NCBI RefSeq assembly: GCF_014524545.1
Contig: NZ_CP053557.1
Location: forward strand, 2,133,501 to 2,197,500
Direction: 5' to 3'
Source: Exiguobacterium sp. Helios
Lineage (GTDB): Bacteria > Bacillota > Bacilli > Exiguobacteriales > Exiguobacteriaceae
Length of the DNA: 64,000 bases
A program made the position numbers and the translations under genes. The notes below the pieces were generated by a model, which saw only the letters and a program-made list of their open reading frames with translations, did no database searches and had not been told where the DNA came from. How positions within the stretch are numbered: position 1 is the first letter of the stretch; each line of letters opens with the position of its first letter. Below are positions 39,407 through 44,465 of this stretch, one piece after another.

Positions 39407-40747
39407 TTATCCTGTTGGTTCATTCACTTTTTTGAATGCAGCGATATAAAAACCATCTGTACCAAGTGATGTCGGGAGTAATTTTAATTCAGCCCGTTCA
39501 CCAATCAGCGATTGAACGGCTTCCGGCATCCGTGTTTTGAATGTCTCGTCAAAAACAAATCCTTGGCTGAGAATATAGTCCGTTTGCTGCTCATTTTCGA
39601 GCGGATCCATCGTACAGGTTGAATAAACGAATGTTCCATCCAGTTTGACCAGCGGAAGAACCGCTTCCAGAATCTGCCGCTGAATGACCGGCAACTGCGT
39701 TAAGTCTTCCGGACGTTTCGTCCACTTGATATCGGGTTTCCGGCGAATGACACCGAGTCCCGAACACGGTGCGTCGACCAACACCCGGTCAAACGACGCC
39801 TCCTCAAAACGTGTTCCCGCTTGACGGGCATCCAGTGCTTCCGCCTGAACATTTTCAAGTCCAAGACGAACTGCCTGTTTTTCTAGTAATTTCACTTTGT
39901 GTGGATGAAGATCCAGTGCCAACAACGAGCCGCTCGCCAAACCTTCCGCGATATGCATCGCTTTCCCGCCTGGGGCCGCACAGCTGTCCAAGACACGGTC
40001 TGTTGGTTGTGCGCCTAACGCTGCAGCAACCAGCATCGAACTTTCGTCCTGGAGCGACAGGTAACCACGTTCCAATAAATCCGTCTGTTGCACACTGCCA
40101 CTGATGATTTCTAGACCGTCTGGTGCCGCATGGGCTGGTTTCGCACTGACGCCCTGGGCTTCCAGTAATTCAATCGCTTCTTGTCTGTCTGTCCGGGTCC
40201 GGTTGACACGTACGGTAACGGGGGCCGGTTCATTGTTCAGTCGGCACATCTGCCACGTTTCTTCTTCTCCGAATAATTCAATCCACCGTTCGACGAGCCA
40301 TGCCGGATGGCTTGTTTCGATACTGATTCGGTCGACCACTGAAGGAATCGCTGAGAAATCAGGTTTTCCTTGTCGAAGGACGTTCCGCAACACACCGTTA
40401 ACAACTTTCGCGATATGCGGTTTACCTCGTGTCTTGGCAATCTCGACTGCCTCGTTGATGACGGCGTGATCCGGAATCCGGTCGAGATAAAACAGTTGAT
40501 AGACACTCATCCGTAATAACGGACGCATGAATGGGTCCAGCTTCTTTTGTTTCGTTAAGAACGGTTCTAAAATATAGTCGAGTGTCAATTCACGGCTGAG
40601 CGTTCCGTACACCAGTTCCGTATATAAGCCGACATCCGCTTTTGAGATAGCACGTTTTTCAAGCATCTGGTGGACGGAAATCGTGGAGAAAGCCCCACCT
40701 TGACCAATTTTTAATAAAGTTGTTACTGCTGCATCTCTGACATTCAT
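39407..40747 (-). CDS. rsmB: 16S rRNA (cytosine967-C5)-methyltransferase RsmB
   Basis: 446 aa. N-terminal NusB-like RNA-binding domain (1-135), SAM-binding CAAPGGKAMHIAE, and the two catalytic cysteines in VDAPCSGLGVIRRKPD and VYSTCTMDPLENE. The ATG overlaps the def-fmt stop by 4 nt. Confidence 0.98.
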   Translation of the reverse strand: MNVRDAAVTTLLKIGQGGAFSTISVHQMLEKRAISKADVGLYTELVYGTLSRELTLDYILEPFLTKQKKLDPFMRPLLRMSVYQLFYLDRIPDHAVINEAVEIAKTRGKPHIAKVVNGVLRNVLRQGKPDFSAIPSVVDRISIETSHPAWLVERWIELFGEEETWQMCRLNNEPAPVTVRVNRTRTDRQEAIELLEAQGVSAKPAHAAPDGLEIISGSVQQTDLLERGYLSLQDESSMLVAAALGAQPTDRVLDSCAAPGGKAMHIAEGLASGSLLALDLHPHKVKLLEKQAVRLGLENVQAEALDARQAGTRFEEASFDRVLVDAPCSGLGVIRRKPDIKWTKRPEDLTQLPVIQRQILEAVLPLVKLDGTFVYSTCTMDPLENEQQTDYILSQGFVFDETFKTRMPEAVQSLIGERAELKLLPTSLGTDGFYIAAFKKVNEPTG

Positions 40748-42129
40748 GCTTGTTCGCCTACTTTCTGTCCAATCGTCAATGTCTGTCCGACACCACGCAT
40801 AAATGTGGCACCGTCCATCCGTTTTTTTCCGGCCGGTTGTACATCTACTAATTTCAATGCGACATCAGATCCGGTTGCGATGACCGGTCCGTCGGCTTCG
40901 AGGGCAATGATTTCGCCCGCCGGTCCGTGACCCGGGACTTTTTCAGCAAAGTAGACTTTCAGACGGTCTGAACCAAGCATCGTATACGCACTCGGGAAGG
41001 GATTCATTCCGCGAATTTGATTGTATAACGCTTCTCCGGGACGTGAAAAATCAAGTCGTTCCCGTTCCCGGCTGATATTCGGAGAAAACGTGACGTCTTC
41101 CTCCCGTTGCGCTTCCGGTGTCAACGTACCTGCAATCAACTGCGGTAATGTTTCGATTAATAATCGGGCACCGGCAGCACTGAGCTTGTCAAACATCGTT
41201 CCGACCGTGTCACGCTCTTCAATCGGTACGATGATTTTTGATAACATATCTCCAGCATCCAGCTTGTCGACCATATACATGATCGTGACCCCTGTTTCTG
41301 TTTCCCCGTCGATAATCGCCTGATGAATCGGGGCTCCGCCGCGATACTTCGGTAATAAGGACGCGTGGACATTAATCGCGCCGTATTGTGGGGCTTCGAG
41401 CACTGCCGTCGGAACGATTTGTCCGTAAGCAGCCGTAATGATTAAGTCCGGTTTTAAATCAAGCAGCTCTTGATAGTCTTCACGGATTTTAATTGGTTGT
41501 AACACCGGGATTTCGTGAGACAATGCTACTTCTTTCACCGGTGTCGGCTTGATTTCACGTTTGCGTCCGACGGGTTTATCCGGCTGGGAGACGACACCGA
41601 CGACATCATAGCCGGCATCAATCACTTCCCGGAGCGTTTTTGCGGCAAAGTCCGGCGTCCCCATGAAGACGACGCGAGGAGATGCTTCTGTTTCGACTAA
41701 TTTATCCGTAAACAATACACCGTCCAGATGATCCATTTCGTGCTGAATCGCCCGTGCAAAAAAACCATTCGCCTTAATTTTGACACTCCGTCCTAGACGG
41801 TCTTGTGATTTGACAACGATTTGCTCAAACCGTTCGACCGGTCCGAAAATTCCCGGCATGCTCAAACATCCTTCGTCATCGATTTCTGAACCGGATGCTT
41901 CGATAATTTCCGGGTTAATCAGCTCGATTGGTCCCGTTTCATCATCCGTATGGACGACGGCGACACGAATCGGCTGATTGATTTGCGGCGCAGCGAGTCC
42001 GACGCCGTCATATTCGTACATCGTATCGAACATACGATCAATCATTTTCCCTAATTTCTTATCAAACTTCGTTACTCGTTGGCATTTTTGACGCAATACT
42101 TCATTTGGTACTTCTACAACTTTATACAT
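40744..42129 (-). CDS. Fused peptide deformylase - methionyl-tRNA formyltransferase
   Basis: One 461-aa ORF with no internal stop. Residues 1-148 are peptide deformylase with all three motifs: GVGLAAPQ (42-49), EGCLS (86-90, metal Cys88) and HEMDH (130-134, metal His130 and His134, Glu131). Residues 152-461 are methionyl-tRNA formyltransferase: RVVFMGTPDFA, INVHASLLPKYRGGAPI (catalytic Asn/His) and KLDAGDML, with the C-terminal OB-like domain. The usual Def C-terminal tail is missing and only about 4-8 residues join the domains. The only internal ATG near the junction would remove the first Fmt beta strand. The start is ATG 42129 with GAGGTGG. In B. subtilis the same locus holds separate defA and fmt. 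It overlaps rsmB by 4 nt and starts 11 nt after priA. Confidence 0.96.
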   Translation of the reverse strand: MYKVVEVPNEVLRQKCQRVTKFDKKLGKMIDRMFDTMYEYDGVGLAAPQINQPIRVAVVHTDDETGPIELINPEIIEASGSEIDDEGCLSMPGIFGPVERFEQIVVKSQDRLGRSVKIKANGFFARAIQHEMDHLDGVLFTDKLVETEASPRVVFMGTPDFAAKTLREVIDAGYDVVGVVSQPDKPVGRKREIKPTPVKEVALSHEIPVLQPIKIREDYQELLDLKPDLIITAAYGQIVPTAVLEAPQYGAINVHASLLPKYRGGAPIHQAIIDGETETGVTIMYMVDKLDAGDMLSKIIVPIEERDTVGTMFDKLSAAGARLLIETLPQLIAGTLTPEAQREEDVTFSPNISRERERLDFSRPGEALYNQIRGMNPFPSAYTMLGSDRLKVYFAEKVPGHGPAGEIIALEADGPVIATGSDVALKLVDVQPAGKKRMDGATFMRGVGQTLTIGQKVGEQA

Positions 42130-42140
42130 AGTTTGCCACC

Positions 42141-44465
42141 TCACATGAATACAAATGGATTTAAATCCACTGTTACTTGGACTTTTTGTTTGATGCGTAA
42201 TGCAAGCATCGCACGGAGTGCCTCCCGTACTTCTTCTTGACCTTTATGTTTTAAAATCACCTGTTGGCGATACATGTTTTTCAACCGTGCGAGCGGGGCT
42301 TCGAGCGGACCGTTGACAATTAAATCGTCTGATTCCAAATGCCGGAGTTGTCCGGCAATCGCTTCTGCTTCTGCTTGGGCTTCAAGCGGATGGGCCGCTG
42401 AAATCGTGATCAATCCTAAAAACCAGAAGGGCGGGTGCCCCCCTAATTTGCGCAACTGCATTTCCCGCTTATAAAACGCTTCATAGTCATGCCGTTTTGC
42501 CGTCTGGATGACGTAATGATCCGGGTTATACGTCTGGATGATCGATTGACCGGCAAGTGCTCCCCGACCGGCCCGCCCTGAAACCTGTGTGATCAACTGA
42601 AACGTTCGTTCACTCGCCCGAAAATCGGGAATTCCGAGTGTGGCATCCGCAGCAATGACACCGACCAGTGTCACATTCGGAAAATCAAGTCCTTTTGCAA
42701 TCATTTGTGTCCCGAGCAAAATATTTCCTTCGCCGCGCTCAAACGCATTTAGTAATTTTTCATGCGCCCCTTTACGTGACGTCGTGTCTTGATCCATCCG
42801 AATGATTTTGGCTTCCGGAATTAAATGTGCCAGTTCTTCTTCGATTTTTTGCGTTCCGGTACCGAACTGCCGAATTTTTTTCGATTCACACGACGGACAC
42901 GTTTTCGGCATCGCTGCTTCAAATCCACAATAATGACACTTCAGACAATCTTGGTGTTGATGATAAGTCAGATTGACAGCGCAATGAGGACATTGAAGCG
43001 TTTCTCCACAATCCCGGCACAGCACGAATGTCGTGTATCCCCGTCGATTGAGGAGCAAGACCGTCTGTTCGCCCCGCTCGATGCGCTGTTTGATTCCTTC
43101 GACAAGCGCGAGGCTGAACGGCGTTCGATTGCCGCGTTCTAGTTCTTTTCGCATATCGATGATCTCGACCGGTGGAAGTTCGCCTCCGAATCGTTCTGTC
43201 AGAGGGAGGTAACGATAGACCCCTTTCTGAGAGCGTGCATACGTCTCTAGAATCGGCGTCGCACTTCCAAGGACGACGGGACATTTATGGTATGCCGCTC
43301 GCCATGTTGCCACGTCCCGGGTATGATACCGCGGATTTTCTTCTTGTTTATAGGTCGTTTCATGTTCTTCGTCTAAAATGATCACACCGATGTTCGTTAA
43401 CGGTGCAAAAATCGCAGATCGTGCTCCGACGACGACGTCCACTTCTCCATGCGAAATCTTGCGCCATTCATCGTATTTTTCACCTAACGACAACCCGCTG
43501 TGCAGCACGGCGACACGGTCTCCGAACCGTCGTTTAAAACGTTTGACCATCATCGGTGTCAAACTGATTTCCGGTACGAGCAGAATGGCTTGGCGTCCCC
43601 GTTCAAGCATGGTATGAATCGATTCGAGATACACTTCCGTTTTCCCGCTCCCGGTCACCCCATGGAGTAAAAACGTATTCGTTTCATCCGGTGCCGTAAT
43701 CGCATCGACGGCATCCTGCTGGTGCGTCGTCAACGTAGAAGGAACAAAGATATCCTGGACAAGATGTTCATACGGATTCCGGTTCACATCAATCGTCTCA
43801 ACCGTAATGACGCCTTTTTTCTCCAGACTATTGAGAATGCTGACGGTCAAATCGAGTTCATGCATCACTTCACTCCATAACACCTCCGGACGTTCCATCA
43901 GATAATCACGAAACAGGATCTGCTTGGTAGCTTGTTTTGATAATTCAATCGTCTCATCAAGCAGGCGGATCCGTTTGTCCGTTTTAGAGGTTTTCTTTTC
44001 TTTGACAACCGGTTGGAGGTGCACCTCTCCCTTTTGAGCAGCTACTAAAATCTGTTGCTGGACCTCACTCGGAAACTGGCTGATTTTCTTCTGATTCCAG
44101 TGAACCAGTCGCGGGTCTTCCGCCAAAATCAGTTTATCATAACTGACTTTCAAAGCAGCAGGTAACATCGCGAGGAGCGCTGTCGCCTGATAGCAAAGTG
44201 TCGTCTCTGATAAATAACCCGACAGTCGAAGTAATTCTTCCGTATACGTCGGAGTCTCATCGAGAACACGTACGATCGGTTTGATTCGTGCGAGATTGGT
44301 CTCATCCTTCACGGCTACGACGATTCCGAGTAAGGAGCGCGGACCAAACGGAACTTCGACACGCATACCGGGAACGACGAGATCACGCCATAAATCCGGT
44401 ACTTCATAGTCAAATGGCCGATCCACCGTCGCAGCGGCGACATCGACGATGACTTCAGCAATCAT
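42141..44465 (-). CDS. priA: Primosomal replication-restart helicase PriA
   Basis: 774 aa. N-terminal 3'-DNA-binding domain (IAEVIVDVAAATVDRPFDYEVP), Walker A HGVTGSGKTEVYL, Walker B ILDEEHETTYK, a zinc-binding cysteine cluster (CRDCGETLQCPHC...CLKCHYCG...CPSC) and QVSGRAGRG. The start ATG overlaps the coaBC stop by 4 nt. Confidence 0.98.
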   Translation of the reverse strand: MIAEVIVDVAAATVDRPFDYEVPDLWRDLVVPGMRVEVPFGPRSLLGIVVAVKDETNLARIKPIVRVLDETPTYTEELLRLSGYLSETTLCYQATALLAMLPAALKVSYDKLILAEDPRLVHWNQKKISQFPSEVQQQILVAAQKGEVHLQPVVKEKKTSKTDKRIRLLDETIELSKQATKQILFRDYLMERPEVLWSEVMHELDLTVSILNSLEKKGVITVETIDVNRNPYEHLVQDIFVPSTLTTHQQDAVDAITAPDETNTFLLHGVTGSGKTEVYLESIHTMLERGRQAILLVPEISLTPMMVKRFKRRFGDRVAVLHSGLSLGEKYDEWRKISHGEVDVVVGARSAIFAPLTNIGVIILDEEHETTYKQEENPRYHTRDVATWRAAYHKCPVVLGSATPILETYARSQKGVYRYLPLTERFGGELPPVEIIDMRKELERGNRTPFSLALVEGIKQRIERGEQTVLLLNRRGYTTFVLCRDCGETLQCPHCAVNLTYHQHQDCLKCHYCGFEAAMPKTCPSCESKKIRQFGTGTQKIEEELAHLIPEAKIIRMDQDTTSRKGAHEKLLNAFERGEGNILLGTQMIAKGLDFPNVTLVGVIAADATLGIPDFRASERTFQLITQVSGRAGRGALAGQSIIQTYNPDHYVIQTAKRHDYEAFYKREMQLRKLGGHPPFWFLGLITISAAHPLEAQAEAEAIAGQLRHLESDDLIVNGPLEAPLARLKNMYRQQVILKHKGQEEVREALRAMLALRIKQKVQVTVDLNPFVFM

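Follow-up and report, generated by a model that had tools for sequence, protein, structure and literature searches.

Peptide deformylase and methionyl-tRNA formyltransferase in a single chain in Exiguobacterium and in another class of Bacillota

The fusion gene, its neighbours and its conservation

The gene is located on the minus strand of the window (the whole 64,000-nucleotide stretch of DNA that was analysed) at 40744..42129, and comprises 461 codons followed by a stop. It encodes peptide deformylase (Def) and methionyl-tRNA formyltransferase (Fmt) in that order. The first-pass annotation had given these coordinates correctly, but had left the strand unsaid; read on the plus strand, the interval contains many stops. 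Starting upstream, priA, assigned by Pfam and encoding the primosomal helicase (42141..44465, minus strand), directly precedes the fusion. A Shine–Dalgarno-like sequence GAGGTGG (42136..42142, minus strand) lies ahead of the ATG at 42129, and synonymous diversity reaches its minimum for the gene just downstream. A mechanical list of open reading frames begins the frame at GTG 42144, inside priA, giving 466 aa. At the other end the stop codon overlaps by 4 bases with rsmB (39407..40747, minus strand; ORF list and Pfam), which encodes a 16S rRNA methyltransferase. Both priA and rsmB are neighbours of def and fmt in Bacilli.

The deformylase domain comprises residues 1–143 (41701..42129, minus strand) and has all three metal/catalytic motifs of Def (GxGxAAxQ, EGCxS and HExDH) intact, as GVGLAAPQ (42–49), EGCLS (86–90) and HEMDH (130–134). 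The Pfam Pep_deformylase match covers residues 1–148 (E 7.4e-50; PF01327, 169 bits with a cut-off of 22.8), and the NCBIfam equivalog TIGR00079 scores 163.5 bits against a cut-off of 103.95, assigning the domain as Def. There follows a linker of residues 144–151 (LVETEASP; 41677..41700, minus strand), and then the formyltransferase domain, residues 152–461 (40747..41676, minus strand; PF00551 and PF02911), which includes the N253-x-H255 stretch. Here Formyl_trans_N matches residues 152–328 (E 2.1e-40) and Formyl_trans_C residues 351–446 (E 1.9e-21), while TIGR00460 scores 321.7 bits against a cut-off of 201.5, assigning it as Fmt. The uninterrupted frame holding a complete Def and a complete Fmt, the Def motifs spanning residues 42–134 and the beginning of Fmt at residue 152, all proposed from the sequence at the outset, are thus found as described.

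In a protein search the full-length frame is free of stops in 19/19 genomes of the genus and in 38/38 genomes of the order. The relatives belong to Exiguobacterium and include Exiguobacterium sp. RIT594 (98% identity) and E. sibiricum (96%). All three Def motifs and the NxHxSxLPxxRG stretch of Fmt are present in each of the 38. In seven pairwise comparisons (NG86) dN is 0.006–0.121 and dS 0.63–2.29 for the Def domain, with 0.032–0.143 and 0.41–1.78 respectively for the Fmt domain (one dS being saturated); judged from these rates, both domains are under purifying selection. Sixty percent of the columns in Def and 55% in Fmt are invariant across the 38 genomes, and none in the linker stretch 147–151. 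The linker is hypervariable in both sequence and length, with 18 distinct strings among the 38 genomes. The distance from the HE of the third Def motif to the VFMG of Fmt is 21, 23, 24, 26 or 28 residues, with the frame always kept, as expected of one translated chain. Two genomes of the order contain a further formyltransferase-like match (G027:C1:630746-631252 and G031:C1:1203708-1204403), within frames 286 and 290 aa long, at 30% identity to the Fmt domain.

The def–fmt fusion of Exiguobacterium is itself already published and is not new; the statement of the first-pass annotation that no description was known is superseded. The available part of PMC12690207 (Mol Biol Evol 2025, doi 10.1093/molbev/msaf311) describes def fused to fmt in four Exiguobacterium reference genomes, and reports that a codon-optimised E. 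alkaliphilum fusion gives growth like that of wild type in E. coli Δdef-fmt. It also reports that losing fmt is a way to escape deformylase inhibitors. The E. alkaliphilum protein is 69% identical to that of the window, and by analogy with this relative the fusion studied here would formylate Met-tRNA. The present work concerns the same fusion in the same genus; compared with the four reference genomes in the part of that paper available, it extends to 38/38 genomes of the order, to tests of selection and of the junction, and to recurrence in another class.

Since def and fmt are often adjacent, a single stop missed in sequencing or assembly would join them, and an artefact of this kind was considered. 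It is scarcely credible, given that 38/38 genomes of the order agree on the fused frame while differing in their linkers, and that a synthetic copy of the relative's fusion complements (PMC12690207, available part). The artefact reading was rejected on the first of these grounds. At the level of sequence the fusion is confirmed as genuine and as a single chain.

The same two enzymes occur in the same order as adjacent genes in the def–fmt operon of E. coli and in defA–fmt of B. subtilis. There a stop separates them into two chains, whereas in Exiguobacterium the stop is absent, the Def tail is shortened and the linker is short. The substrate of ArnA is a sugar nucleotide. In fusions of the ArnA type (PDB 1z7e and others) a Formyl_trans domain likewise shares its chain with another enzyme. 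The partner differs, being a deformylase here, and the present fusion passes the fmt equivalog cut-off while scoring far under the one set for the ArnA model.

Predicted structure, the Def tail and the junction

An AlphaFold2 model was calculated from a 60-row alignment that combined this protein with 23 fused proteins of Exiguobacterium and with 36 rows taken from 18 unfused loci. The model has two confident domains (mean pLDDT 93.9), with a pTM of 0.68 that does not fix their relative placement. The block mean pLDDT falls to 74 for residues 141–150, in the linker region. No helix is present in the model between the last helical turn of Def (140–143) and the first strand of Fmt, beginning at 152. 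Among solved structures, the best stretch covers one domain only in each of the best 60 of 99 matches.

In E. coli the C-terminal helix of Def contacts uL22 and 23S rRNA by way of specified residues, most of them basic (PMC12690207, available part), and binding of uL22 by this helix is also described in the available part of PMC8712518. The tether could on this basis serve localisation, with Fmt brought close to the tunnel exit by Def, or Def to initiation complexes by Fmt. We regard this as unlikely. In the fusion the Def domain is predicted to end without such a helix, and no basic, E. coli-like helix was seen by eye in the unfused Def tails of Bacillota among the 70 unfused loci where HExDH is clear (two of the 72 loci lack it). 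The stretch from HE to the stop in these 70 loci is 18–93 residues long, with 64 falling in the range 18–40 and 54 having 31 or fewer, and many of the tails are acidic by eye. Two unfused loci from Myxococcota have a longer, basic Def tail that may resemble the E. coli helix by eye. The earlier proposal that a ribosome-docking tail had been replaced by Fmt is therefore weak: unfused Bacillota tails are mostly short and none is E. coli-like by eye, so that loss of a docking function cannot be claimed, and replacement of the E. coli helix was rejected as an explanation. In Neobacillus pocheonensis (L102) the def gene next to fmt seems to be truncated or to carry a frameshift, and its best Def frame lacks HExDH.

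A single chain need not be the only product of the gene, and in practice there might be two proteins, with most Fmt either initiated internally on its own or released by cleavage at the linker. This is highly improbable. The linker is indeed hypervariable and is modelled with less confidence, and an in-frame ATG, GTG or TTG lies between HE+10 and VFMG in 11/38 genomes; in the other 27, including that of the window, there is none. The ATG of VFMG is the only start codon of the junction common to 38/38 genomes, the others coming and going, but it is located inside the first strand of Fmt (residues 152–157 in the AlphaFold2 model), which a start at this codon would remove. The gene of the window also has a TTG at HE+9; it is not conserved, and no Shine–Dalgarno-like stretch is seen by eye before it.

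Synonymous variation points the same way. Scaled synonymous diversity is 0.39 over codons 1–12 at the true start (8 usable codons), compared with 0.76 over codons 128–146 at the junction (16 codons) and 0.70 for the gene as a whole (276 codons). Among the sliding windows that start at codons 125–150 the minimum is 0.62, at the 15th percentile. Synonymous suppression is thus absent from the Def/Fmt junction, unlike at the real start. From codon conservation and synonymous diversity an internal Fmt start was rejected as unlikely, in keeping with the original expectation that a whole Fmt would not easily be made from a start of its own, and by these sequence comparisons Fmt is most likely not made alone from the junction. 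An internal promoter was likewise rejected as unlikely, three promoter-like sites being found where 1.9 are expected from shuffled sequences. The gene very probably encodes a bifunctional enzyme, made as one chain from the Def start and consisting of an N-terminal Def, a linker of about 8 residues and a complete Fmt.

Recurrence in another class of Bacillota and probable independent origins

The Bacilli sample contained 398 genomes, 360 of them outside this order. Among the matches listed, which extend to about E 6e-106 so that a diverged fusion could escape, 57 rows span both domains in other Bacilli, and 57/57 contain at least one stop. In the sample of the phylum (398 genomes) rows running through both domains without a stop were found in at least seven genomes besides that of the window (G522, G623, G771, G405, G451, G489 and G575), all in one other class. 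In the orders to which these seven belong Def and Fmt occupy one frame in 7/7 and 17/17 genomes, counting G794, where the locus is cut by a contig end, and G789, where two match pieces lie in one frame.

Across the class the fusion is found in 72 of 154 genomes searched. Sixty of these have a stop-free row through both domains, and 12 were found to be fused on reading of the locus (G789, G814, G860, G646, G917, G916, G803, G918, G815, G912, G914 and G915). Fifty-five of the 72 are supported by the ORF and domain test at the locus and 17 by the stop-free match row alone; the rows of G807, G842, G851 and G794 are partial. Nine genomes of the class are unfused at the level of the locus (G908, G820, G872, G904, G906, G901, G905, G821 and G833); together with the 72 fused genomes they make up all but 73 of the 154. 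A search of the open-access PMC literature, including the available part of PMC4014445, found no description of a Def–Fmt fusion outside Exiguobacterium, and as far as these searches show the recurrence in another class goes beyond the content of PMC12690207 in its available part.

A tree was calculated with a quick IQ-TREE run from 105 concatenated Def and Fmt domains with the linkers removed. This order contributed six of its 38 genomes and the other class 49 of its 55 fused genomes checked at the locus, and 50 unfused loci completed the set. The six Exiguobacterium rows form one group within an 18-row group of Bacilli (value 100 for each on this quick tree), separate from all 49 fused rows of the other class. 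An AU test was run on 47 rows out of the 105, picked after the tree was seen; it rejects a single clade of the 25 fused rows among them (log-likelihood lower by 152, p 1.57e-7), which argues for at least two origins. Within the class the fused rows need at least three changes on the quick tree; a single origin followed by splits and repeated origins are both possible.

It had been suggested that the fusion arose when neighbouring def and fmt genes lost the stop codon between them, and this route is likely, given that the two genes lie in the same frame in 43/72 unfused loci. These include the 27 loci that represent other Bacillota in the tree set, and the five Fictibacillus loci; in most Bacillaceae loci def and fmt are in different frames. 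Neighbours in the same frame would be fused once the stop codon disappeared, whether the tail went with it or was kept. In the ancestor of this order the stop and tail of def would have been lost, joining the neighbouring genes. At a set of unfused Bacillota loci (L056–L060 and L160–L179) the end of def lies a short way ahead of fmt and in frame with it, where loss of the stop would fuse the two.

Deformylase content and possible consequences of the fusion

The genome of the window encodes a second Def of 185 aa, with the motifs GIGLAAPQ, EGCLS and HEYDH, which we take to be of the type-2 kind. A second Def match occurs in 38/38 genomes of the order by row count, and the fused Def therefore need not be the main deformylase there. 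A second PDF is likewise reported for all four Exiguobacterium reference genomes in the available part of PMC12690207. In Exiguobacterium a second, separate Def can thus share the load of deformylation.

The other class presents a different picture. When whole genomes were searched with PF01327, the fused gene was the only Def found in 59/72 fused class genomes (23/24 and 36/48, counting G807 as one gene in two pieces), a number that may be too high since many genomes of the class are incomplete (70–100%). Those with the fused gene as the only Def include the single-contig genomes G405, G451 and G790. A second Def occurs in 13 fused class genomes, comprising 12 of the 48 and G789. The same search returned two Def in each of three genomes of the window's order. 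As a control, 8/9 unfused genomes of the class have one Def, and a single Def is thus usual in the class whether fused or not.

Taken at the level of sequence, these results make it likely that the fusion arose at least twice in Bacillota and that it is common in a second class, where the fused protein is usually the sole Def; a Def that lacks an E. coli-type docking helix and carries Fmt would then be enough for all N-terminal deformylation. The single chain is expected to carry two independent active sites. Channelling between the Fmt and Def sites is unlikely, because initiation and elongation lie between fMet-tRNA, the product of Fmt, and the substrate on which Def acts. The tethering of Def and Fmt at 1:1 follows from the sequence, as was proposed initially, and the likely benefit would be a fixed dosage, in which every Fmt comes with a Def preceding it in the chain. 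The essentiality of Def stems from the activity of Fmt. The order Def–Fmt would suit the dosage idea, yet separate def and fmt genes already stand in this order.

Nearly all bacteria run a cycle of formylation and deformylation, in which Def is an antibiotic target, and the fusion locks the two enzymes together. Lineages with a fused Def as their only one provide a natural test of whether Def must dock by a C-terminal helix, and of whether it must exceed Fmt. With two independent origins, what might be a curiosity of one genus becomes a repeated and comparable evolutionary outcome, and the recurrence together with the sole-deformylase status is the part most worth following.

The class fusions (L133–L146, L148–L159, L180–L187, L191–L212, L219 and L221–L229) have 29–89 residues between HE and VFMG where measured, and many of the linkers are acidic by eye. 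EACLS replaces EGCLS in 3/49 fused class rows of the tree (L197, L224 and L226), the cysteine being kept, and one fused class row lacks the D-x-G-D pattern in Fmt. The fused match G841:C72:10974-12338 lies within an open frame of 1707 codons, which may be either a product of high G+C content or a larger fusion. In family f67 the G+C content around four loci is 75–78%, and the genomes are 2.6–3.0 Mb in size.
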